Shown here one piece after another: positions 1 through 29,542 of a stretch of 64,000 nt of DNA (the stretch's first letter is position 1; each line of letters begins with the position of its first letter). Source of the stretch: Onchidella celtica (Eukaryota > Mollusca > Gastropoda > Systellommatophora > Onchidiidae); contig OZ007570.1 of NCBI GenBank assembly GCA_963931925.1, positions 67,981,714 through 68,045,713 on the forward strand, given 5' to 3'. Position numbers and translations under genes: made by a program. The notes under the pieces are model-generated. The model saw only the letters and a program-made list of their open reading frames with translations. It searched no databases and was not told the DNA's origin.

Positions 1-3000
1 ACAAACTACGGACATATCCCAAGGTACCAGAGGGAAGATCACTGAGACCGCGCAGTGTAAGTAAAACAGCTCCTAAAGTTTTGTAGCTGTCAGCAACATG
101 AGTGTCTGCTACGCTGTTCTTCATGATACCTTTAAACTTGTTCCATGCTTTCTCTTTCTCTTGTTCCAGTTGCTGGGGATCAGCTCCCTGGTGATAAATA
201 TTGGCAGAAATTGAAATATGAACAGAAAGAATTGAAACTGTCTTTCATAACCTAAAGACTTAAAAAGTCCTTGATATCTTATCCTTTATTCAAAAACGCA
301 TATGAACAACAGACTCACTTACATGATTTTGCCTCACTACCCATACATTTTCAATAATCAAGGATTTCAAATTTTCTTAGAAGCTTCAGATAACAAACCC
401 TTCTCTTTTTACAGATATCACTTCTAAAATGGACCAAGTTATCGACTGCTGTCTTGTCTGATAGAGTTTGCTTTGTTAAGAATGCTGGCACCAAATTTAT
501 TATTCTGGCTTGAGGGCTTTGAAAGTTATGGCATTTTCAAAAGAGAAAAAATAGTTCGAATTTGATATCTTTTGCAAATTGCATAATGGTCCAACTTTGC
601 CCCCCCCCCCCCCCCATGACAGTTAGGCCATGGCAAACTTAATCCTACTTACTCTTTTTTCCAACTCCACAACAGTCGAGACAACTCCTTTGACTCTCTC
701 AGACACACCCAGCCAAGGTGTTTCTGTGTACAGAGATGTAAACATTTTTGCTGAACCACTGATGGAATTACCCTGGTCATTCAATACATTTTTTCCTCAT
801 CCTTACTTCATCCACATATCTTGTTTCATTCTTCATGTCAGTACCTTCATTTCAAGATAACGCTTGCCAAATACATGTTGTATATATACTACATCCTTCT
901 CCTTCATCATGAAATCCAAATCGTACCAGCTTCTGATTCAGAATTCCTGCTCTTCCTGAAGAACATTTTTTGCAATTTTACCTGGGCTTTAACAGGGTTA
1001 AAAAGTTGCATTTCAGGGCTTTTCCATGGATCTGGATGATAGCAAAGACATTATTTAAATATTTTTATTTTCATCAGATTTGTTTCCCCCACTTTTTAAA
1101 TATTTCTTGAACCCAAAGAGAATTCCAGGGTTACTCCAGGGTTAATCACTGACTTCCAGGGCTATTTCTCAAATTAATAAAACTCTGGGTTTCCCTGGAA
1201 TTCCACAGCTGCGCAATAACCCTGCTGATTATTCTCCCTATGTTCCATCAGATTTGATACAACTTGTGTTTTTTTTTCCTCCCCGCCCCCCCTTCTTGTT
1301 GATAAGGACTATATTTGGCAGCAACAGGTCACACTGCTCTTCATGCTTTCCTGCTTCCTTGGCTGTCTCAAATTCATCTGATTTTCATCAGCTTGCAAAG
1401 CTTCCGAACAAAGACCCATTTTGCTCATCTTGGATTATAAATAGCACTTACCTGAAGAATCCTGCTGTTTGGGTTTGGGTGTATATGATTTATAAAATTC
1501 ATCCCCGAGTTTGGCCAGTGTTCGTCCAACTTGCAGGCGAAACTGTTCTGTAGTGTGCATACATACAAAAAAGAAACATTCATCAGCAGGTTCTATTTAC
1601 TGATGATTCAATCTTAATTGCATGAAATAAGAGCAAATTTCCTCTACTACCACCACTTGGCATGCCCTTGGATATCTCTCTATCATGGCTCGATCCTTTT
1701 ACAAAATGCTGATGCCTCTCATTCCCATCCAATTTCCAGGTGACCTTTTCATCTTATCATTACGCAATGCAACATCAACCTTCAACCTGCAGTACACTTA
1801 ACCCCCTTGCTGCCACGTTTTTCTAGCCCTCCTGAACAGCACATTCTCACTAGACAGAATGTACAGTGTACATCCACAGCGCTCTGGCATGATCAATGTT
1901 AGGACATGTGGCGTACATCCAGAGTGCAGTGACTTCACAGTAACTGCACTACTGCTTTCATTTCCACATCTTTCACAAAAATGCTCCCCAAACTCAGTCT
2001 TTTAGTTTCAGTTCAGGGGCTTGCTTCAACTCTGACAGAGAAATTATTTCTTATTAACGTGGATGTTCAAATGTAACCACAGAAAAGAAGAAGCACCTAA
2101 AACCACCAATAGGTTTCTTTGCAGCTTTACAGCAGAGACTGTTTCACCACTTCCCAAGACCAACACAGTTGACCAATTGATCTCTCTATTTTCTGCCCCT
2201 TTCCACTCATCCACTACCATTAAGGCAAGATGAAGTTATACTGCCACCTCTCACTTGCAGCGGACATGTATGGAAAGTCATTTCATCATATACAAAATCA
2301 ATCAATGCTTATAAATGTATTTCAAACTAGGGTAACTCCCTTTAAAGAAATAACTTATTAAGGGGGTGTGTTGCTGTGAAAACTAAAGTCTACATCCCAT
2401 CATTTCCAATGCATTTTATGCCTTAATACTGACTGTGTACGGTAGTGTACCTAAAGTGAAACAACCGACATTATGTACAAAACTGGGACTTGAACAGTTT
2501 TGTTATTTATTTGAATGGAAACTTTCAGACATGAAAGATAAAGATATAGTTAACTGACTAAGAAAATACCAAGAACACAAAATCAATCATGATTTTTACT
2601 TCCACACATCCCTTTAAATGTCTTCAACCTTTCTTGTTTTGTGTCTTGGCAGTTCTCAATATTTCCTCATTAACTACGCTTAATGGTGATCACTGACATT
2701 TAATGATTTAGAATTTCATTTTCTGAATTCAAGTTTCATGTTTTTTAATATAGCAATTGTTAACAATAACAACAACAAACAACAAAAATGAGAAGCACAT
2801 CCACACAGACTGTTAAATTGTTTACCATTGTGCACAAAGTGATGCCCAACCCCATCATGTTGTTCCTCTGGCTCAGCCTCAACTTCTGACTCATATATCA
2901 AATGAGCTTGGTTTATGGTTCTCTCTTGTCCTGAAAATACATGACCAAAATGACAACAGTATTTTCTTTGAGTTCGTATACAAAATTGCAGACATTTTTT

Positions 3001-6000
3001 GTTACTGGCCACAGAAAAGCACAAATGGTTAAACAGATAAGTTTACATTTTAAAAAATGCATCCAGTACAAAAGACCTGTGCACCATAAATTTACAAGCC
3101 ACATTTAAGCTACCTGGATTTGACAAAAGTAAGAGTTAATCTTTGCTTTTCCCTTTTGTGCATCTTAAATTTGTAATAAGATAAGATAAGATAGATATAT
3201 AACTTTATTATCCTGTTTCCAGGAAATTTGTTGTCACAGCATCAGGAGTGGTACAACAGCAAATACAATATATCTAAGACCTATAGGTCTTTAATACATA
3301 CCACACACACACACACATTGCTCACACAACATTACCAGCCAGTAAGAACATTGCTCACACACACACACACACACTACCAGATCAATCCATTAGGAAAACT
3401 GACAACAGCATATTACATCAGGAAACACTACTACTTTGAATTGCAGATGGCTAAAAAAAGATCATCTGTAGCAATCTCTGTTTGTTTTTAAATACAGTAT
3501 TTGACCACTTCTTTGGGGTCGGACTATCTGATGGAACAAGGGATTGGAGCAATCATTTAGAACTGATTTTAGTTTCTGTTTGCACGAATGCACAAATAAC
3601 TCATCAAAGTTCACATATTCACTGTTAGTTAGATAGCAAGCTTCCTTGATAGAGTTATTAATTTTGTTCTTGTCAACCTCCTTTGCATTTCCTCCCCAGG
3701 CTGTAATATAAAATAGAATGATACTTTGGATAGTTGATTTATTAAACATCTGAATGAGTGCTTTATCTACATTAAATGATCTAAGTTTCCTCAAAAAATA
3801 CATGAGTTTCTTTGCCTTTGCGTGAACTGAGGTGGTATGAGCATGCCAGTCGAGTTTGGAGTTGACATAGATTCCAAGACATTTATAAGAGTCGACTCTT
3901 TCAACATTTTGATTATAGATTTTAAGTGGTGGAAATAATGTTGTGTTTGTTCTGAAATCAATTACCATTTCCTTCGCTTTCTTTACATTTAATGGTAAGA
4001 ATACAGGTGACACGTTTGATTTATCATAAGAGTATCTGATCTGTAATGTCTTGAAATTTGAATATGATAACATGTGTTCAATCTGTATCACTAGCTCAGC
4101 TCAGCGAGTGCACAAGTATACTCAAACACAGCGGTTTGCTTGAAATATTTCTCTCCTATTTGCTTTCACATTATGTACCATAAACTGATTTTTACATACG
4201 AAGATATCCTGTTTTCTTACTTTTAGTTGCAAAGTAATTGTTATTCTGAGTATGTTGGTACCAAATGTAAGTCTGTATCATCATTTTTAAGAAATTTATG
4301 TCCTTATCAAATGTTAAAAATGACATCATATTGCGACATTGCTTGGAAGACCAAGTTAGGATATCAATATTTTCTTCAATATCTCACCCACATTCAAGTA
4401 ACTTTGTCAACACACAGTCTCCAACATAGAGAACAGATTCAACTTTTTGCACGGCTTTGAAAACATTACAAAGTTTTGTTTTAGTGATGTAAATATGGCC
4501 AGAAATCATGTTTTTACAAAATGTAGCAAGGGAAGTAAAAATAATGAATTTTACAGCTTTCAAATTATCGTAGGAACATAATGAAAACTGTATGGAGTTG
4601 TTTTAATATCAACGAGAAAGCGAAGTAATGCCTTATATACAAATGGAGTTGTACTTTGTAGCAAATCAATTTGAAATACCCATTTATTAAAGATAAGGTG
4701 TAATGAATTCAAAATACGTCTAAGAAAATTGTGAATTTTAGTCATTTCAATACATCCAGTACACAACAACAACAATCTTTACCAACAGAATAAAATGATT
4801 TAAATGATTATGAAGTGTTGCGACAATAAAAAAAAAATTAATAATTAATTTATATATAAATTTCACTTAAGAGGTCGAATTTTATGTGGGAGATCACCAT
4901 GTAAATGATTTTTCAGTTTTTTGGCCAGCTCCGGGGTAGCCCCATGCAGCTTTGATGCTTTGCTGAGAATTTCTTGAAACTGAATTTCATTTTTATAAGA
5001 GCTTCTTTTATTTGTGTCTTCGAATTTGCACAAGGAGAGTAAACTTCTTCAACACTTATGCAAAGGCCACCATATTTCGTACCAAGGTGTTAGACTGGCA
5101 TGTGCAGTAACTGATTTTATTTCTTTCTATGTTTCTCTTAGTTTGCTATCATTTTATTTTCTCTTATCTGCATTTTGATCTCTGACCTTTTCCCTCTCTT
5201 TTTCTCTTTCTAAGTACAATGTACAGTCACACGTTTCCGACAAAATCAAAAGAGCTGGGCTCTCTTTGTCAAGGACTTGCTTTTTATGAAATTATGAAAG
5301 CAACACTTCTGTTTCTTTTTGCCATGTGAACAGCTGAGCGATTCAGCAACGAGCAATTTCTTCCCTAACCAACATCATAATCAAAATCACCAAACTCAAA
5401 CACTTTCTCATATCACTTTTTTTTTTTTTTTTAATCAGGTTGGTAACGCAGCAGTGCGACAAAGCAGCTAGATCTACACTGTTCAGCTGAAATTCCACTT
5501 TGCTTAACTGGGAGAGATACAGAATTTTTAAAGTAGTGTTTACATATTCTGAAAGAAACATGGACGAGCGTTGTTTTATAGTGATGCCAGACTTTGCATG
5601 AATTTCCTCTGGAATCCCATAGAAAAACTTTTTCCCCCCAGATATTTTCAATTTAAATTGACTTAGGAAATTCAAAACTAAGGGTATTTACAGTCAAAAC
5701 AAAACAGAATTTTATTCTGCATACACTGATTTTATGCCTGTTCCTGACCCATCCATAAGCATCACCAAGTTTTGCGGGGGCCCACATTAACAAGAAGGTA
5801 AATGCAAAGTGAATTTCCAGCGGCAAAGCCAGGGTGTGGTGATTTCTTTCCAACTCCAATATATTTGTTTTTACCATGAATACAATGAAAACAACACCAT
5901 TTTAAAGTACTTTGAGTGTGGTTTTTTTTTGTCATATCTGATTTAACCATATTGGTATTAATGTTATCAGATCTATAGAACAAATCAGTGCCTGAAAATG

Positions 6001-6189
6001 GAGTAAATTACTCCTTCCACGCCAGATGACCAGCAGCAGAGCCAGCTTACTATATCTACTCATATCAGACGTCGATGGAAGCAATAAAAACAACCTACGT
6101 GGAAGAGGATTAAAGTTTTGGTCCAGGAAAAGATCAACAAGAGCCTCTAGTTCTTTATTTGAACCTCTTGTTGTTTGAGCAGTTGCCAT
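1..6189 (-). CDS. BID-like BH3-domain apoptosis protein, 3' end beyond window
   Basis: Four coding exons join on the minus strand: 6187-6189 ATG with exon 6099-6200, then 2826-2930, 1452-1547 and 1-183 (open at the window edge). Introns are GT-AG and every junction is phase 1. The visible 158 residues start MATAQTTRGSNKELEALVDL, followed by an acidic stretch (about 45-54). Residues 72-83 are VGRTLAKLGDEF, which fits the BH3 consensus (four hydrophobic positions, small residue, Gly-Asp) exactly. A helical C-terminal part follows, ending ...TLGYVRSL. BH3 proteins bind the groove of BCL-2 relatives at mitochondria. BH3 position, size, and helices on both sides resemble vertebrate BID, whose C-terminal region has a similar YVRSL motif; BID orthology is inference. 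The 11 bases before ATG are 5' UTR behind a good acceptor (ctactttcag), so a non-coding first exon lies upstream. The 3' exon needs an acceptor 4 bases downstream of the strongest one to stay in frame. Confidence 0.72.
1452..1547 (-). CDS. BH3 exon of the BID-like gene
   Basis: The exon is bounded by an acceptor ending cactacag and a perfect gtaagt donor. It encodes residues 67-97, beginning QFRLQVGRTLAKLGDEFYKS. Leu76, Gly80, Asp81 and Phe83 are the canonical BH3 anchor positions; the closest textbook match is the BIM helix (LRRIGDEF). The exon's two other frames are less plausible: one has a stop, the other is incompatible in phase with the neighbouring exon. Confidence 0.78.
1796..1936. 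repeat. Short interspersed repeat family C, copy 1
   Basis: In an intron of the BID-like gene. It begins next to a TTAA (ttaacccccttgctgcc) and contains the pair gtacatccacag and gtacatccagag, with ttaggacat between them. The same layout recurs at 28103-28244, where the ends are inverted repeats. Probably a small non-autonomous DNA element; the TTAA would suit a piggyBac-type target but is seen on one side only. Confidence 0.4.
3175..4091 (-). mobile_element. 5'-truncated CR1/Rex1-like LINE with 3' tail
   Basis: A 209-residue open frame (3462-4091) has the features of the C-terminal side of a non-LTR reverse transcriptase: KAKEMVIDFR, then YKCLGIYVNSKLDW, KAKKLMYFLRKLRSFNVD and a FYITAWGGN block, as in Rex1/CR1-clade ORF2. 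The endonuclease and catalytic FADD part are absent, so this is a 5'-truncated copy. Downstream lie CA runs and, at 3174-3222, a typical tail (aataaagttatatatctatc, then cttatc repeats). It sits within the first coding intron of the BID-like gene, in the same orientation. The related tail at 46383-46735 shows that the family is multicopy here. Confidence 0.82.
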
Positions 6190-6435
6190 GGTTCCAATAT
6201 CTGAAAGTAGGTACATAGACAAAAAGATTGAGATTGCAGGCAAAAAAAAAATAAATCATTTTAATATTGAATTCAAAATTTTTGCCATCACAAATGGCAA
6301 ACATTTTCTATTATCACTCAGAAAATTATAATCTTATAAACGTTTTAACCTTGCAGTCATACTTTAGACCTTGAGCAGAGGAAAAAAACTGATACAGTGA
6401 TAGGCCTAAAAAGAAATCACATACACTGGGGTCTT

Positions 6436-16900: not shown

Positions 16901-17425
16901 CCAAAAGTAACTCTCACCTGTATCCCCCTATCTACAGGTTTGGTCCCTCAGCACAAAAGGTAACTCTCACCTGTATCCCCCTATCTACAGGTTTGGTCCC
17001 TCAGCACAAAAAGTAACTCGCACCTGTATCCCCCTATCTACAGGTTTGGTCCCTCAGCACAAAAAGTAACCCTCACCTGTATCCCCCTATCTACAGATTT
17101 GGTCCCTCAGTACAAAAAGTAACTCTCACCTGTATCCCCCTATCTACAGGTTTGGTCCCTCAGCACAAAAGGTAACTCTCACCTATATCCCCCTATCTAC
17201 AGGTTTGGTCCCTCAGCACAAAAAGTAACTCTCATCTATATCCCCCTATCTACAGGTTTGGTCCCTCAGCACAAAAAGTAACTCTCATCTATATCCCCCT
17301 ATCTACAGGTTTGGTCCCTCAGCACAAAAAGTAACTCTCATCTATATCTCCCTGTCTACAGGTTTGGTCCCTCAGCACAAAAAGTAACTCTCATCTATAT
17401 CCCAACTATCTACAAGCTCGGCTCA
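16901..17425. repeat. 53-bp minisatellite, about ten units
   Basis: Nearly identical units of 53 bp, each containing gtaactctcacctgtatccc, ccctatctacag and gtttggtccctcagcac. Two unit subtypes segregate: cacctgtatccc on the left and catctatatccc on the right, so the array grew by local duplication. Diverged units continue to about 17595. Each unit has a pyrimidine-rich stretch ending in CAG and a GTAACT, resembling weak splice sites. It lies downstream of the Bcl-G-like gene. Confidence 0.9.
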
Positions 17426-17595
17426 TCAGCACAGAAATTACATTCACCTAGTTCCCACCTATATACAAGCTTGCTTCATCAGCACGAAAGTACTCTCCCC
17501 TGTTTCCCACCTATCTACATGTACAAGCTTGGTTCATCAGTGCAAAAAGTACTCTTACCTATATCCCACCTATCTACAAGCTGGTTCATCACCTT
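17426..17595. repeat. Decayed units of the same minisatellite
   Basis: Three to four diverged units keep 'cacctatctacaagct' and 'ttcatcagcac' at similar spacing. These look like older units from which the uniform array expanded. Confidence 0.65.
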
Positions 17596-21000: not shown

Positions 21001-21660
21001 CATTTCTTTTTAACTTAATCATTAGGTAATTTAAATTACATGAAGAGAGTCAAGGTATTAAACAGTGTATTCTAAACGGTTTGTATAAGAGCTATACTAG
21101 CTGGTTATATATATCTGAAAATAAGATTTTCAAGGAACGACACATATCAGTACTATCAAATATTGTAAAAACCATAGAAAATCTGCAGGGTCACAATAGG
21201 GTTTGGAACAAAACTAAAATGTAGCAAGAAAAGATGAAAATGTTTTTTTTATTGTTTGTTCATAATATGGGGCTTGCAACATTTTACTTTTTCTCCTTTT
21301 TTTTTTTTTGGCCACATATTAACCATGTCAGAACTATAGTACAGTTTGATCCAAGTACCCAATCTAATCAATAATCAATTATAACTGATATCTATCAGTC
21401 AAACAATCAATGATGATATCTTCCACAATCATGTGCATTTCTTGCGTGTTGATATATTAGCCACTAGAGATGAGTTAATCTCTTCCTGCATCAGAAATGT
21501 CTTTACCATACCATCTCTTTAGTTTTCCTTGATATGGTCCTTTGATGTGCTGCACGGATATGTTTGATGGATGACATTTCCCAACACTGTCTAACTGTCT
21601 GAGAGGTGCTCATGCAGTATCCAGATGTGTGGATTTTGAAGAGGGGCTCTCTTGTCTTGC
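18020..21660 (-). other. Region 3' of the Bcl-G-like gene; possible long 3' UTR
   Basis: AT-rich with little transposon content apart from a family A copy at 21157-21310. The first minus-strand AATAAA after the stop is at 21248-21253, inside that repeat copy. Others lie near 18848 and 18025. A 3' UTR of about 0.4 kb or up to 3.6 kb is possible. Open frames here (for example 18110-18541) show no protein features I recognise. Confidence 0.3.
21157..21310. repeat. Repeat family A, copy 3 (degenerate)
   Basis: Shows tattgtaaaaaccatagaaa, atctgcagggtcacaatagg and further fragments of the family consensus, clearly older than the copies at 16 and 63 kb. Confidence 0.5.
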
Positions 21661-24600
21661 TCAGTCCAGGTCATAGTCAGACTCACTGCTACTCAACATA
21701 CTGTCCTGTAGATGCATGCAAAATGTCACAAAATAACTAAACAGCAAGAGTTGGGCATGCATATACAACATATTTCAGTAAATGCCATAGAATGAAATTC
21801 TTCATCAAATTAATGTCTCAGATAATATTCTTGTGATGATCCATGCTTGTCTGGATAAGTTCATTAACAATTGCATTGTATTTTGTTTTATTATGGCATA
21901 CGGTGATTCAAATACGTTGTATTTACTTTTCTCATTTGCTTTATTATTCTGTAAGACATAATGCACAGAACTACATGTGACACAATGTATCTCACTTTAC
22001 ACATGAACCATCTCATTTATTTTACAGATGCTTTGTTACAATTCTGGTTGCATCAGTAAGCCTTCATGCTGCACTTCACAGATCATACACACTGCAAAAA
22101 GTTATTTACTATATTTACTATACAAAAAAAAGAAAATAATCTAAGGCAAACCGTGAAGACCTTAATGCAAACCGTGAAGACCTTAATCACCAAATGGTGA
22201 AAAAAATGAAAAATTAATAGTGAAGCAAAATAACAATAAGAGTGAATAGGACTAGTGAGTTTCCTATAAGGTGCTGCTGCTCCAAATTCAGTCAACATAA
22301 CTCATATCTTTAGCCTTTAGCTTTATATCCATTGCCTTGAAGACAAAGTTTTTAACTGAAATTTAATGCCAAAACTAAAAACTATGTTATCAAATTCATT
22401 ATCCAAAGCTGCACATCATTCAAACTCTAGTGTCCACTGATGAACGTGTGTTTTCTATTTTTACTTTAAGTGGGCCTCAAAGCAATTAACACAATTCTGA
22501 TGAGCTTCTCCTCTAAATATGTCTTCAGAAATATCTGAAATCAAAATCAGCCTTGTGTCAATTTTCCAAACTCAATTGCAAAGCAGCAAAACCCTAAAAA
22601 AAAACTCCAAAAAACCCAAATTCATCAGATGCCTACGTGCAGTGCTGGAATTGCCCAAAATGGAAACCTTTTGACATGATTGCTCCAGATTGTCCCAGAA
22701 ATGTCAGACTTACAAATCCTCCCTGATCCATGATCCATGTAGCAAATGTCTCACTGATGTATTGCAGAGTGAACTCCTTGGTCTGGGTGGCAACCTTGGA
22801 GCCTTTCCCCACAGCTGATACCACACCTTTGGCTGTATAGAAGACAAAGGCAAGGTGGTCCCAGCTGAGTTCACTGCCCATGGAGTTCTGTACTGTACTG
22901 CGGAATCTTTGGTAGGCGTCCTGCTGGGCATCTTGCTTGACGAACTCCACTGCCTCGTCAAACTGGAATGTCAGATAACAGTTGTGTGAGTCTGATCAGT
23001 GTATGGTAAGTAAATTCTTTTGTCATTTAACTCAATACAATTCCAACAGCAGGAAAGTGCATGGTGAAGGGAAACAAAATTACATGTGGGAGGAGGACGG
23101 AAAAGAAAAGGAAATTTAATACTGACTCTCAGTGTATATTTTCCTTTCTGGGGGAGGCCAAAATCTACAAACTGATTCAAAGATTTTTAACATGTTTACA
23201 AAATTTGTTCTAGATCTATACAAATCACAATTTAAAATTTAACTGATAAAATTACGTCATATGGCCTTTCTCTGTTACATTTTCAATGATGGACATTTTA
23301 ATTGATCGATCTCTGAGAATGAATCTATTGTTAGGGATCCAAAAATAATGGAATGTGCAAAATGGCCCTTGTCATGCCTACGGATCATTAAACCCAAAAT
23401 GAAACTCAAAACCAGTTAGATTTACATACACTGTTTACAATAGTAATGCTCCCCCGACTCCAAACTACCACCCACTGCATTACTGTTTAACAGTTTATCA
23501 TGTGACACGACTGTCTTTCCGGGCAGCACCTTGTTCAGACAACAGCGTGACTTCTATCCCCCAATACTGTAAAACTGAAATATTTCTGATAGGGACTTAA
23601 AACTAGACTGGCTGGTTTAATCTTCCATGCAGGTATTTCTCTTACAATAAATAGTTTGTCAGAATTTGCTGGTTTTCTGCCACCGCCATGAAACACTGAC
23701 CAGGCTATGTCAAGTTATTGACTTTTGAAAAAGATGAGAGACAAGAGAGCAAATTTTAACAGTTCTCTATTTCAGTCTATCAGTGCAAAAATACAAAAGC
23801 TTGTGGACCAACAATACCTGTTTAGAACTTCTGTCTCCACTCGACCTCAAACATTCAATGATTTCCTTTTCCAGCTCTGACAATGGAGCTGGAGAATAAA
23901 CAATAAATTAAGAGTTAGAATATTTGTACATGTAGTTTCACATTTCATGTATCTGTATATCATAATAATTACAAACTACAAAATTTTACTTTTATAATGT
24001 GCAGCCCAAACTATGCCCTGGCTTACTGAAATGTATGATTTCCTCAGCAACTTGATTCTCAATGATTTCTTCACCATCTTGATACAGACAGGCAATCTTC
24101 TACCTATCTGAAAACATTCAAACTCAAGACTATTCTGTTTAATAATCACATAGTTCAGCATTAATATGTGAATAATCAAAGCGAAGAACACCAAGACAAG
24201 TTGAGAAGGAAAGAGAATGAGTATAAAGAAACACTTACTTGGCTCTACTACAGCCCCATGTGACTCCTGGTCAGACATGGATTGTGAGTACGAGTCAGCC
24301 ATCTCAATCAATCTCTGGGCAATCCTCCCATACATGGCATCTCTGTCTTCTGGTTCTGATTCTACCACAGCCTGCACATCTTCTGGAAAGCCATCGACCA
24401 CATCTAATGAGAAATGAGGAATGCTCCACATGCAGTAACATGTCATAACAAAAAGAGACTTTAAAAAAGAAAATGCACAGAAAATCTGTCTGGGTGTAGC
24501 AGGGCTTTCAACAAAGTTAAAGTATGGCAAACAAACAAAAAAAGAGAAAAGATTATATACGTTAGGCCTACCAAGTCCTAAGTTAGAAACAATCACAAAG

Positions 24601-27600
24601 TCAAGAAATGTTCCAATGTGTCAGACATTTTCTCTGTTCTTTCTGATTCATTGTGTACTGGTTTCTAAAGTGTTTCTTACATGTGACTCTGTAACATAAA
24701 AATTTTTCTCTTTTTTTTTGTTTCAGACCAGCATCCCTTTCAAAGGAGATTTGGAAATATAGGAACAGAAACAGACACAGTCAGGCAAACAATTATATGC
24801 AAACTCTGCATGTCAGTGATCCTGAGGGCCAAAATAACAATTAGACATAGATCACACTTCCACATAGAGTGGTCCATGCACATGGTGAAAAATCAAAACA
24901 AGCAGAATAAAAAAGACAGCATGATGTTTCATTGCTTTTTGATCTGATTCATCCTAATGCTTAAGTTATCATGCATCACCATACAGATTTCCTTCTGACT
25001 TTAAGTTTTCTTTAAATGTAGCTAGAAACTGAACCTCACTATATAGACACATAAAAAAAAAAAGCTAAAAAACAAAACATATTAACAGTTTATGCACGCT
25101 GAATTTGTTCATATTGAGCATGCTGGAACACAAGCAAAATAGTCATGCACGGAAACACAAGTAATGCTTTATGTTGATTGTGATGTGAAAGTTCTTTTGC
25201 TGCCTGCAGATTTTCTAATTCATTTAATATTATTGACAGTGCTGTTACATAATCATTGTACAGCCATAAAAATAAAGTGTGTTCAAATCTTTAAAAAATG
25301 AAACTGATCTAAAATCTCCCATTTCTTCTTGTAGAGTATTTTGGTATGAAGACCAGGGATTTGTCTTCTTCCTCCTTGTGAAAACAATAAGTTTTTCTGA
25401 AGAACAGGCTATTTAAATTACAATTGATGAAACTTCTGAGTACAGATTGATCTATCTCAAAATGTTCCATTTTTGGGATAAAACTTATTCAGTAGAATTC
25501 ATGACGAATTCATGAACCAAACTTCTTCCAGTATTCTGTTGAAATTCTCATCAAAGCTGAACTGACTGCAGATTTTCTGAATGATTTTACATATATATAT
25601 ATGTATATGATTTCAAATTTACTTAATAGGGAACACGAAAAGGTATGTTCAGAAAATTGGATAGAAAGCTGTTTACACATGAGCTCCTTGTCAATTTGCT
25701 GAGTAAAATATTCTGGCATAAAGTATTGATGAATCTAATAAATTTTTTTCCTAACAGTACTTACCATGAGCATGTTCTTCTGGTACATGTGGCAACACTA
25801 CTGTTCTTGTAGCACTGACAGTTGTTGTCACTTGAACACTGCCATCAGCCCTCTGAGTGGTCACTGTTCTTTCGTCTAATTCCAAATCCATCATCTGTTC
25901 ACTCTGAGCGGATCGATCAGCCAACCAACTCATGTTTAGCAGACCTTGACTGTCATGGAACTTAATCCCCGAGGCTGGGACAATACTTGGGGAATTCCCT
26001 TCTCTAGGGACGCTGGAGGCATCCTGTGTGTTGTCTCTCACTGTTTCATCCACATCCATGAACTGTATTTCGTCACCAGGACTGTCCAACACATTACTTT
26101 GCATACTAGACCAGAGGTTAGAGTTTGAATCCTCCTCCTCTTCACTTGCATGTTCAGACATTGGCACGTTGGATGAGGAAGCTGAGGCAACTAGTTCACC
26201 AGCTCGAGGTAGAGCACCCAGACTTTGTAGCAGAGTATCAGGGGATGGACTGGATGACTTTGAGTGAGAAGACGATGGATGAGGTGGACGCTGTGGCGCG
26301 AATTTTCCTCGGCTGGCTATCGGTCTTGATGATGGTATGGATCTTCCTTCATCAGGCACTTCTCGTGGCGGTGGGGGAGGTGGTGGCGGAGGTGTGACTC
26401 TCTGATCTGATGATGGTGGTGGAGGTGGTGCTGCTGCTCTAGCTGATGATAGTGGTGGAGGTGGTAGTGGTGGTCCTCCTGATTTAAATGATGATGATGG
26501 TGGTGGTGGTGGTGCTGCTGCTCTAGCTGATGATGGTGGTGGAGGTGGTAGTGGTGGTCCTCCTGATTTAAATGATGATGGTGGTGGTGGTGGTGCTGCT
26601 GCTCTATCTGATGATGGTGGTGGTGGAAGTGGTTTACAGTCTTTGTTAAATGAGGTCTGAGGGACAGGAGGAGGTTTGGGAATGGCTGCATCTGTATCCT
26701 GTGGCAACCTTGCTGTTTCCCGTCTTTGAGAGCTTGATGCTGGACCACGCGCACTGAAACTGGAGCCTCGAGGCTGAGGCTGTGGTGAAGGGGCAATGGC
26801 TGTAGCTGCATCTCCATGTACTGGAACTTCACCTCCTCCTCTCAGTCTTTCCTTGTCATCAGCTGCCAAGGTATGGCTGCTTCTCCCATCTTGGCTGACT
26901 GAAATGGAACAAGCATTCAATTAGATTAAATGACTGAGCTTATCAAACAGCCATTGAAAAACTACAAGTATCATCTCTGACATCGTGACAGAGTCAATAA
27001 AATTAAATTACATTATAAATGTGTACCAGCTGCAAATATAATATGACAAAGCACAAAAGACTTTAAAGTTTTTTTTCATCCTACTGGGAAAAATCTTAAT
27101 CAAACCTTTTGTGGGTTACGGTGAGCAATAAACAAATAATAACATAAAGGACTACTCACCTGAAAATCTAGAATCTTTTAAATTTTTCCTTTTGCTCTTG
27201 CGGAAAGAACTGAAGATTGAACCTCTGTCTTTCCTGGTGGAATGAATCTCTGTATGCGCAGAGCCATCTTCACCTCGATAGTCTCGTTCTTCAGTGTAAT
27301 CTACTGTCTTATGTCCCCGTATGTGTGTAAGAATGCGACGACGTTCTTCGCTTAGAACTTGTCCCGCCCCCCCTTTCTTCTGCCTTCTCCTTTTTGGTGG
27401 TGATGTGTCCTGGTTTTGTTTCTCGATAACTTTGTCAAATCCTTCCTTTTGGTCTCGATGAAATGTATGAATGAGTCTCTCTTTTGCCCTTTTAAAAAGA
27501 CTCTTTTTCCGGCGTTTTTCTGACGCCTGCGAATTTTCACCATCAGTGTCTGCTGAAGACACAGAGCCACCATCATTATTTTCGTGCCTTACTTTATCGA

Positions 27601-29542
27601 TTTCTCGCAGCGCATCCAATTCTTTTTTCTTCAATTCTTCGTCCTTAGATTCACGAAATTTGGATGGCATAGTTTTACTTCTAGCAACTGGGCTCTCCGG
27701 TACATGTCCAGGAATTTCCACCTGCTCTGGTGCAGGATCTGTCTTGTTTCGTCTGGCCTTAGGAAATCTTGCACTATGTTCATCCAGTCGTTTTTCTAAA
27801 AGCTCTTCAAGAATTCTGGCAGCATCGTTGTACACCTCCAGATTTGTTGGTCTCCGCACTTTCTCAAAATGTCCATTGCGTGACATCTTCTTGTGAACTT
27901 TCTGAGAAAAGGAAAAGAAGAATGATAACTGAAGTATAAAAATTATATAATTTGATCTCGTTTTGACATTATGGTCTTACCCATTCAAATGTAGCTTGAG
28001 GAGAGTTATCTTCTCAGGAAATTCACAATTTCCATATGACAGACATCAAGAAGTACATTCAGAGCTTTCAAATCCAATATATGTACCAATGGCCTTTACT
28101 GACCCCTTCACTGCTGCATGTTTTTCCCTGTTGTATGCTGAACGGCATATTCCCACTACCATATTTAGACCATACAGTACATCCACAGGGCACTCACCTT
28201 TTGATTTTAGGACATAGAATGTACATCTACAGAGCAATGAAGGGACTAAATTTGAATGAACTAAACCCATAACCAGTTGGCCCACTGTCTCTGAGCATAC
28301 ACCGATGTGATTTTTAAAGTTGAATTTCGATCACCAGTGTGTAAATCAAAATTTCCTGTCAGGCTTTTTATTTCTACCCGAGGAAAATGCGTCTTTTTTT
28401 TTCCGGCTCAAAATTTCAGCATACTTTCTTCTGTTCAATTCCGCTGTGGCTCAAAATCTATAAAATTAAAAATGTAGCTAACTTCAAGACCTTCTAAAAT
28501 ATGCGCAGTACACCTTTAACTAAATCTTTCTATAAGTCATAAGATATTTTGAAGAATTTAAGGCTCAGTGGTTAAAAAGCATGAGTACATTGGAGGTTTA
28601 AACTTTCATTATATAATGATTCTGTTTAATTCCACTAAGAAAACAGCCAGGGACTTGGCCAGTTTGTACTACAGGTTAAAATGAACAGGCCCTTCAGTCT
28701 ACAGCCAGCACCTTTATATTGGTAGTGATGCCTTTGTATCCAAATTTTATGTTATGGGGCGTAAATATTTATAATCATGTATGACAACTAACTGTATGAC
28801 GACCTTCCTAAAGAATCACATTCATCTTCTCCTGTCTCTTTCACTCCAAGTGCCACTGGCGGAGCCATTCATAAAGTCACTCTGGTCTATGTAAAATTTT
28901 TAAATGTTCATTAAGACAAGTTGAATGTCAGCACAAATAATGGGTTTGAATATTTCCAGTAGTTCATTGATGATTCAACCATTTCAGTTCATGGTTCAAC
29001 TCTCTATCGTATCTCTGTCAAGCATGTCACACAATATTATGAAGAATTTTACACCCAGGAGATGCTGATTCAGTGTTAGTCCCCACATTGTAGACAAACA
29101 TTTGATAACTTATGCCACAGACTGAATCAGTGAATTGCTAACATATTCTACAAACCACACAAAATCTGTGGGGTCACAGCAAGGCTTGAAGCAATGACAA
29201 CAGCTTTTTCTTTATAACAGCAATTGTATCGTTTCTGTATAATTATTTCTTATGCAAGACTTCACCACATTGGCCTAACACTTTTTCTTCTTGCCACACT
29301 TTGTCTTTGAATCAGTGAATGCATCCAAAATAATTTTGGGAAAATGCATAGATCTAGAGCCTTAGTAGATCTACTCCAGTAATATTCCAAAACAAAAATA
29401 TTTGGATGAGTTGCAATACCTGATCTGTATTAAGCTGTAATAAGCTGTTCTACATGACATAATATTTGTTCCTTAATGTGTTGTAATGGACACATACCTT
29501 TCCGAGTTCCCCGCCATATGCATCGCTGACACGCAAAGGCAT
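21661..29542 (-). CDS. Bcl-G-like BCL-2 family protein with proline-rich N-terminal half (816 aa)
   Basis: Seven coding exons: 29498-29542, 27160-27901, 25765-26898, 24239-24403, 23818-23888, 22714-22962 and 21661-21705. All introns are GT-AG and phases match (0,1,1,1,0,0), giving 816 codons plus TGA. The start MPLRVSDAYGG has A at -3 and an in-frame TAA upstream. Residues 1-262 are basic and Lys/Arg-rich. About 335-445 is proline-rich (GPPLPPPPP type). 697-719 holds a BH3-like ECLRSSGD, around 751-762 a BH1-like SWDHLAFVF, and 795-806 a BH2 WIMDQGGFDSML. There is no C-terminal membrane segment; the protein ends acidic (ESDYDLD). Bcl-G (BCL2L14) has the same late BH3/BH2 layout and no anchor; BCL2L13 is the alternative. 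BH1 lacks the NWGR Gly-Arg that normally binds BH3 Asp, so groove binding may differ. Family membership is well supported; death-promoting activity is inference. Confidence 0.82.
22714..22962 (-). CDS. BH1/BH2 exon of the Bcl-G-like gene
   Basis: 83 codons between acceptor cattccag and donor gtaagt, both phase 0. It begins FDEAVEFVKQDAQQDAY, carries SWDHLAFVFYTAKGVVSAVG (BH1-like) and ends TWIMDQGGF. The next exon continues DSML, completing BH2. Human BCL2 has its conserved intron after the equivalent GGW of BH2, so the gene keeps an ancestral BCL-2 family intron. Confidence 0.85.
23818..23888 (-). CDS. Short BH3-like exon of the Bcl-G-like gene
   Basis: 71 bases between tattctccag and gtattg encode (T)PLSELEKEIIECLRSSGDRS and four more residues. 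Leu709 and Gly713-Asp714 match BH3 spacing, and the stretch resembles LLKYSGDQLE of human Bcl-G. The residue at the last hydrophobic BH3 position is Ser716, so the motif is weaker than in the BID-like gene. Confidence 0.75.
24239..24403 (-). CDS. Acidic linker exon of the Bcl-G-like gene
   Basis: 165 bases between ctcattag and gtaagt; starts DVVDGFPEDVQAVVESEPED, and includes GRIAQRLIEMADSYSQS, probably helical. No known domain recognised. It links the proline-rich region to the BCL-2 fold. Confidence 0.8.
24478..24565. repeat. Repeat family A, fragment (copy 4)
   Basis: Contains gtagcagggctttcaacaaa and agtatggcaaac next to A-rich sequence, a degenerate piece of the family in an intron of the Bcl-G-like gene. 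Confidence 0.35.
25765..26898 (-). CDS. Proline-rich exon of the Bcl-G-like gene with coding tandem repeat
   Basis: 1134 bases between ttccatttcag and gtaagt encode 377 codons. The first part is Ser/Pro/Ala-rich. A tandem repeat of 27-28 residues (81-84 bp) follows, with units of the form APPPPPSSFKSGGPPLPPPP and SSARAA, then a run of nine prolines. GPPLPPPPP motifs are typical of profilin, EVH1 or SH3 ligands, as in formins and WASP. The last third is acidic, including EHASEEEEDSNSN, and ends SATRTVVLPHVPEEHAH. The repeat makes length variation between alleles likely. Confidence 0.85.
27160..27901 (-). CDS. Basic N-terminal exon of the Bcl-G-like gene
   Basis: 742 bases. The exon begins KVHKKMSRNGHFEKV in frame with the first exon, so the ATG at 27884-27886 is internal, though usable by a shorter transcript. 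It contains a probable amphipathic helix (NDAARILEELLEKRLDEH), several Lys/Arg clusters (RRKKSLFKRAKERL, PKRRRQKK) that could act as nuclear localisation signals, and RKDRGSIFSSFRKSKRKN. No known domain recognised. Confidence 0.82.
28103..28244. repeat. Short interspersed repeat family C, copy 2 (MITE-like)
   Basis: Ends are inverted repeats: ccccttcactgctg on the left and cagagcaatgaaggga on the right. The interior gtacatccacaggg and gtacatctacagag match copy 1 at 1796-1936. It lies in the first intron of the Bcl-G-like gene. Confidence 0.45.
29150..29305. repeat. Repeat family A, copy 5
   Basis: Has aaaatctgtggggtcacagc, aaggcttgaagcaatgac, caattgtatcgtttctgtat, attatttcttatgcaagact and actttttcttcttgccacac, in the family order with moderate divergence. 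It sits in the first intron of the Bcl-G-like gene. Confidence 0.6.

Follow-up and report, generated by a model that had tools for sequence, protein, structure and literature searches.

What kind of Bcl-2-network gene lies at the left edge of the window, by which we mean the whole 64-kilobase (kb) stretch of contig OZ007570.1 analysed here, is the question that this locus raises. A preliminary description had taken the minus-strand gene at that edge (hereafter the BH3 gene) for a relative of BID. Our analyses indicate that its BH3 motif is real, while an identification as BID itself was unsupported, as there was no Pfam BID match and pairwise similarity to BID was gone once the BH3 had been masked. 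We regard it as an even call that this is a real, partly contained gene of the Bcl-2/BH3 network that bears a BH3 and has no recognisable BH1.

The BH3 motif of the window-edge gene

The 64 kb were scored in all six frames with a matrix built from 15 human BH3 motifs. The top score, 23.3 bits, belonged to VGRTLAKLGDEFYKSY at 1530-1483 on the minus strand, followed by IAQRLIEMADSYSQSM at 24323-24276 with 16.4 bits and a third-best score of 11.4 bits. The best scores in 60 Markov-resampled 64-kb windows averaged 11.1 and peaked at 15.6, so that none of the 60 reached 23.3. Known BH3 motifs scored 6.9 to 30.3 when left out of the matrix, a range that includes the value of VGRTLAKLGDEFYKSY. The BH3 of the minus-strand gene is a real motif, and by matrix score the BH3 looked for in a BID member is present. 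The claim that it satisfies every position of the BH3 consensus depends, by contrast, on the consensus chosen. A loose pattern had three matches in the window, one of them containing a stop, so that the pattern alone is not telling, and a stricter pattern that required a small residue before Leu had none in the window. When VGRTLAKLGDEFYKSY was compared with the 15 human BH3 motifs, the closest was that of BAK (8 of 16 residues), with BID at 6 of 16.

Predicted structure of the BH3 gene

The gene appears to be a multi-exon gene that is only partly inside the window, its 3' end lying beyond the left edge. Four coding pieces were present on the minus strand: 6189-6099, 2930-2826, 1547-1452 and a last one that is still open where the window ends on the left. 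Their peptides were as previously stated, and their frames were consistent. The preliminary description had given no exon borders, and those used here are the borders that give phase-1 joins. Its proposal of four exons with matching phase-1 junctions stood as far as the four pieces are concerned, but not at the last junction. An all-phase-1 fourth exon, starting at 183, requires an acceptor of only -1.6 bits, and the four-exon model was dropped for this reason. An AG 4 nucleotides (nt) upstream of that acceptor scores 6.5 bits, yet does not fit the phase in which exon 3 ends. Since this better acceptor is usable only when the preceding exon ends in phase 0, an additional exon at 723-653 would restore the frame. 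This candidate, overlooked earlier, has 71 nt, an acceptor of 6.8 and a donor of 6.6 bits, and is entered in phase 1 and left in phase 0. It was picked by eye before its match in length to a 71-nt exon of the neighbouring gene was noticed. A rival candidate at 1031-982 (50 nt, sites of 8.2 and 7.5 bits) also restores the frame; it overlaps short local repeats and was set aside on that account, which is a judgement. The revised model has at least five exons with junction phases 1, 1, 1 and 0 and encodes 183 residues up to the window edge. Its junctions have splice-site scores of 4.4 to 12.7 bits, on approximate matrices made from consensus values. The predicted exons are as follows.

6099..6189, minus strand: exon 1, ATG in a strong start context (ACCATGG), MATAQTTRGSNKELEALVDLFLDQNFNPLP, donor in phase 1
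2826..2930, minus strand: exon 2, 105 nt, phase 1-1, acidic linker ESEVEAEPEEQHDG
1452..1547, minus strand: exon 3, 96 nt, phase 1-1, carries the BH3 VGRTLAKLGDEFYKSY
653..723, minus strand: candidate exon 4, 71 nt, phase 1-0, ETPWLGVSERVKGVVSTVVELEKR (first codon split), a prediction
1..187, minus strand: last exon in the window, canonical acceptor, phase 0 entry, open at the edge, GADPQQLEQEKEKAWNKFKGIMKNSVADTHVADSYKTLGAVLLTLRGLSDLPSGTLGYVRSL

Exon 1 may instead start at 6200 behind an acceptor, with a 5' untranslated region or a further coding exon upstream. Within the first intron there is an open reading frame of 212 residues (3462-4100, minus strand), which by eye resembles the C-terminal part of a reverse transcriptase of a long interspersed nuclear element and which Pfam labelled ALKBH8_N (expectation (E) value 3.2e-8).

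Comparison with BID and the Bcl-2 family

The Pfam BID profile matched none of three models of the BH3 gene, all of which end at the window edge, while the human BID control gave 2.3e-93. The NCBIfam library, which is bacterial and archaeal, likewise returned no BID match for the four-exon model. One sub-threshold Pfam match was to CsgE, a bacterial family (curli protein), at 1530-659 on the minus strand (E 4.4e-4, residues 72-119 of the five-exon model), spanning the BH3 and the added exon. It was weaker without the added exon (0.19), and with the 50-nt exon in the model Pfam returned nothing up to an E of 10; the CsgE match is probably due to chance. A search of viral contigs for relatives, with the four-exon model as query, gave eight stretches that fit a pattern, none of which was confirmed.

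In pairwise comparisons the five-exon model reached Z scores of 2.63 with human BID (23 of 1000 shuffles as high), 4.31 with mouse BID (3/1000) and 3.15 with BAK (13/1000). When the 17 BH3 residues were masked these fell to 0.13, 0.05 and -0.19, respectively, and BCL2L14 then ranked first among the eight sequences compared, with a Z of 1.75 (61/1000). This negative is a weak one, as the comparison has low power: in a control, BH3-masked BID found BAX (Z 5.58) and missed the other five family sequences. With the four-exon model the best of seven human or mouse sequences was BAK (Z 3.72, 8/1000).

A comparison by profile leaned towards BID. A two-sequence BID profile scored the five-exon model at 21.8, a value that none of 100 shuffles attained, over only 25 columns around the BH3; with the BH3 masked the score was 14.6, and 4 of 100 shuffles, from which the masked residues were excluded, scored as high. 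The corresponding values for a six-sequence Bcl-2-family profile were 17.2 (4/100) and 12.3 (30/100). BID itself aligned to a Bcl-2-family profile over 102 columns (E 1.5e-4) and the four-exon model over 47 columns (E 0.0064).

The preliminary description had also pointed to a BID-like size and a helical C-terminus, and both are consistent with our results. The protein would be roughly the size of BID, and AlphaFold2, given the last exon alone (60 residues), predicted helices at 2-24, 27-47 and 54-59 with moderate confidence (mean predicted local distance difference test (pLDDT) 70.7). The motif YVRSL, which had been taken as a mark of BID, proved unstable in register: in the MAFFT alignment of the four-exon model it fell on the alpha-6 column, and in that of the five-exon model it lay closer to the C-terminus.

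The resemblance to BID (PF06393) lies in a single BH3 within a short protein, an acidic linker with D|G before the BH3, a helical C-terminal part and the lack of a recognisable BH1. The gene differs from BID in having neither a BID profile match nor pairwise similarity outside the BH3, its C-terminal end being beyond the window. With BAK and the multi-motif Bcl-2 proteins (PF00452) it has in common a BH3 that, of the 15 compared, is most like that of BAK, and a possible helix before BH2. It differs from these in having no recognisable BH1 and no Pfam Bcl-2 match, and here it is the BH2 region that lies beyond the window.

A Bcl-2-family gene nearby

The BH3 gene lies about 15 kb downstream of a previously undescribed gene on the same strand (27886-21661), for which six exons and 796 residues are predicted. 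Judged by its sequence, this neighbour is clearly a member of the Bcl-2 family.

27160..27886, minus strand: neighbour exon A, from the first ATG, basic N-terminal region
25765..26898, minus strand: neighbour exon B, proline-rich
24239..24403, minus strand: neighbour exon C, 165 nt, phase 1-1, BH3-like IAQRLIEMADSYSQSM
23818..23888, minus strand: neighbour exon D, 71 nt, phase 1-0, IIECLRSSGD, aligns with the BAX BH3
22714..22962, minus strand: neighbour exon E (core exon), 249 nt, phase 0-0, BH1 region SELSWDHLAFVF (from 22875), BH2 WIMDQGGF (22737-22714), Pfam Bcl-2
21661..21705, minus strand: neighbour exon F (last), DSMLSSSESDYDLD and stop, no membrane anchor

The protein would thus have an N-terminal region that is basic and rich in proline, two BH3-like motifs (exons C and D), BH1, BH2 and a short acidic tail; a Bcl-2 domain with BH3, BH1 and BH2 was found in it. 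Its C-terminal 176 residues matched Pfam Bcl-2 with an E value of 2.7e-6 and 28.3 bits, which is under the curated cut-off of 31.4, and matched BAX with 3.1e-8, among 83 distinct chains with an E of 0.01 or less. A provisional join that lacked exon D and retained some intron gave 0.0017 for BAX and 3.6e-6 for Pfam Bcl-2, and the far weaker BAX match supports exon D. Against human sequences the Z scores were 19.2-19.6 for BAX, 10.0 for BCL2L13, 9.2 for BCL-XL, 8.7-9.0 for BCL2L14 and 6.5 for BCL2L12. The intron after GGF coincides with the intron position of BCL2 and BCL2L1. AlphaFold2 predicted four helices for the core exon alone (pLDDT 59.6). Foldseek returned 29 matches for this model, none significant and all with an E of 2.5 or worse; five were Bcl-2-family entries (ranks 1, 2, 6, 8 and 24), the top one being rat BCL-XL (E 2.5).

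By sequence, then, the neighbour is most like BAX, its best score. BAX has no such long N-terminal region and does have a membrane anchor. In layout the neighbour resembles BCL2L14 (Bcl-G) and BCL2L12, with a long N-terminal region, BH2, no membrane anchor and an acidic end, but it retains a BH1-like W, whereas BCL-G is described in PMC10244440 as lacking BH1; the same paper regards the conservation of BCL-G as open. Beyond the last exon there is an AATAAA at 21253, and further downstream a minisatellite (16903-17578) of 53-bp units, with about 11.6 copies and a diverged stretch. No transfer RNAs or Rfam families were found in the window.

Relation of the two genes

The two genes have a run of exons in common: a phase 1-1 exon with the BH3 (96 and 165 nt), a phase 1-0 exon of 71 nt and a core exon that starts in phase 0, with the donor 16 residues past the BH3 Asp in the BH3 gene and 18 in the neighbour. 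When the intron was resampled, open exons of phase 1-0 and exactly 71 nt turned up in 1 of 2000 copies with strict sites and in 3 of 2000 with looser ones; for an exon of any length the counts were 78 and 151, respectively. The core exons also align with one another, AWNKFKGIMKNSV with AYQRFRSTVQNSM, at a local Z of 3.12 (14/2000 shuffles) and a global Z of 2.82 (18/2000). Because of the common exon run, we consider the two genes to be probably tandem paralogues, perhaps old ones, with weak support from sequence similarity.

Proposed function and alternative explanations

Judging from its exons, the protein of the BH3 gene would have a short stretch resembling a helix at its N-terminus, followed by an acidic linker, a strong BH3 and a helical body, and it is probably pro-death. 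The BH3 helix would dock into a groove, either that of a pro-survival Bcl-2 protein or that of a BAX/BAK-type effector, which would promote permeabilisation of the mitochondrial outer membrane. The helical body may bury the BH3 until cleavage or modification releases it, as in BID. The acidic linker of exon 2 contains EQHD|G (2865-2851, residues 53-57) before the BH3. This could be a caspase-type cleavage site from which the BH3-bearing C-terminal part would be released, as in BID; since the presence of a D-G pair within an acidic linker is weak evidence, we treat the site as a lead only.

Several observations weigh against a BH3-bearing Bcl-2-network gene that is paralogous to its neighbour. 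Pfam Bcl-2 had no match in any of the three models, the CsgE match below the cut-off was the only Pfam match of the five-exon model, and Foldseek gave no match for the last-exon model at E up to 10. The 71-nt exon is a prediction, and the 50-nt candidate, with better splice sites, fits too. Similarity over the whole protein is weak, with a Z of 1.30 (56/500) between the four-exon model and the neighbour, and 2.11 (45/1000) for the five-exon model, or 1.5 (95/1000) with the BH3 masked. Local alignments of the 71-nt exons (249/2000 shuffles) and of the BH3 exons (301/2000) were unremarkable. In addition, it is exon D of the neighbour, not exon C, to which the BAX BH3 aligns, so that the exon match pairs the motif of the BH3 gene with an extra, upstream BH3 of the neighbour; when BH3 is matched to BH3 instead, the phases differ.

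The explanation that survives best beside it, and one with a sizeable minority chance of being correct, overlaps with it: an ordinary multi-motif Bcl-2 protein, BAK-like or neighbour-like, with a worn BH1 and with its BH2 in the first 12-20 residues past the window edge. The neighbour's core exon has 83 residues and ends in WIMDQGGF, and that of the BH3 gene is cut at 62. The stretch TLGYVRSL resembles TLQYISETF and the BAX sequence TLDFLRER, both of which stand just before BH2, and the ranking of BAK with the four-exon model points the same way. The missing Pfam Bcl-2 match tells against such a protein, as does the last exon of the BH3 gene, in which no BH1 of the W-G-R type was seen by eye at the expected place.

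It is unlikely that the gene encodes a canonical, largely disordered BH3-only protein of the BIM/BMF/BIK type, unrelated to the Bcl-2 fold and adjacent to the neighbour by chance. The firm similarity is indeed limited to the BH3, and the sole BH3 entry matched among solved structures was a 25-residue Bik peptide (E 0.61 and 0.69); the exon run in common with the neighbour and the last exon, predicted with moderate confidence to be helical, argue against it.

A BID orthologue or true BID-type protein, with its BH3 in a folded Bcl-2-like bundle that lacks BH1 and BH2 and is activated by cleavage of the linker (EQHD|G here, LQTD|G in BID), seems to us quite improbable. The size and order of the parts, the unmasked and masked scores with the BID profile and the Z of mouse BID would all suit it. 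The lack of a Pfam BID match, the loss of pairwise similarity without the BH3 and a BH3 nearer to that of BAK do not. In human, BID lies near BCL2L13. There is a slimmer chance still that this is a genuine BID-type gene of a non-vertebrate that has kept its place next to the multi-motif Bcl-2 gene from which it came, BID having been born by tandem duplication and loss of BH1 and BH2. Such an origin would be likened to the proximity of BID and BCL2L13 in mammals; Bid and Bcl2l13 share one synteny block in bats, according to PMC11146322, which also favours a BID orthologue. The only synteny marker of mammalian BID tried, ATP6V1E1, had a best E of 0.90. In PMC8998228, Bid is found only from cartilaginous fish on and is absent from hagfish and lamprey, which speaks against an orthologue.

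Least probable of all, and very much so, is a chance assembly of gene model or motif, or another domain such as the CsgE-like match. The exons are predicted from sequence, codon scores, trained on the exons of both genes, rated those of the BH3 gene no better than stretches of its introns, and the five-exon model has its CsgE match. The BH3 score against its nulls, the splice-site scores and the Bcl-2-family neighbour argue against this explanation, and the CsgE match is sub-threshold, to a bacterial family and absent from the 50-nt-exon model.

Implications for the evolution of BH3 proteins

In the literature, BH3-only candidates are reported from echinoderms, hemichordates and cephalochordates (PMC8998228) and BH3-only proteins from flatworms (PMC7022251). 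Other papers state that none was found in molluscs (PMC5550854, PMC8917759) or in bivalves (PMC3634015), that Bcl-RAMBO is present in corals, the coral BH3-only repertoire being open (PMC4715348), and that the extrinsic pathway belongs mainly to vertebrates. The open-licence literature searched yielded no report of a BID from an invertebrate. Because BH3-only proteins have already been reported, in part as candidates, the point of interest here would be a folded, BID-like one. If the animal is an invertebrate, the BH3 gene and its Bcl-2-family neighbour would, as a pair, provide a direct test of the origin of folded BH3 proteins.

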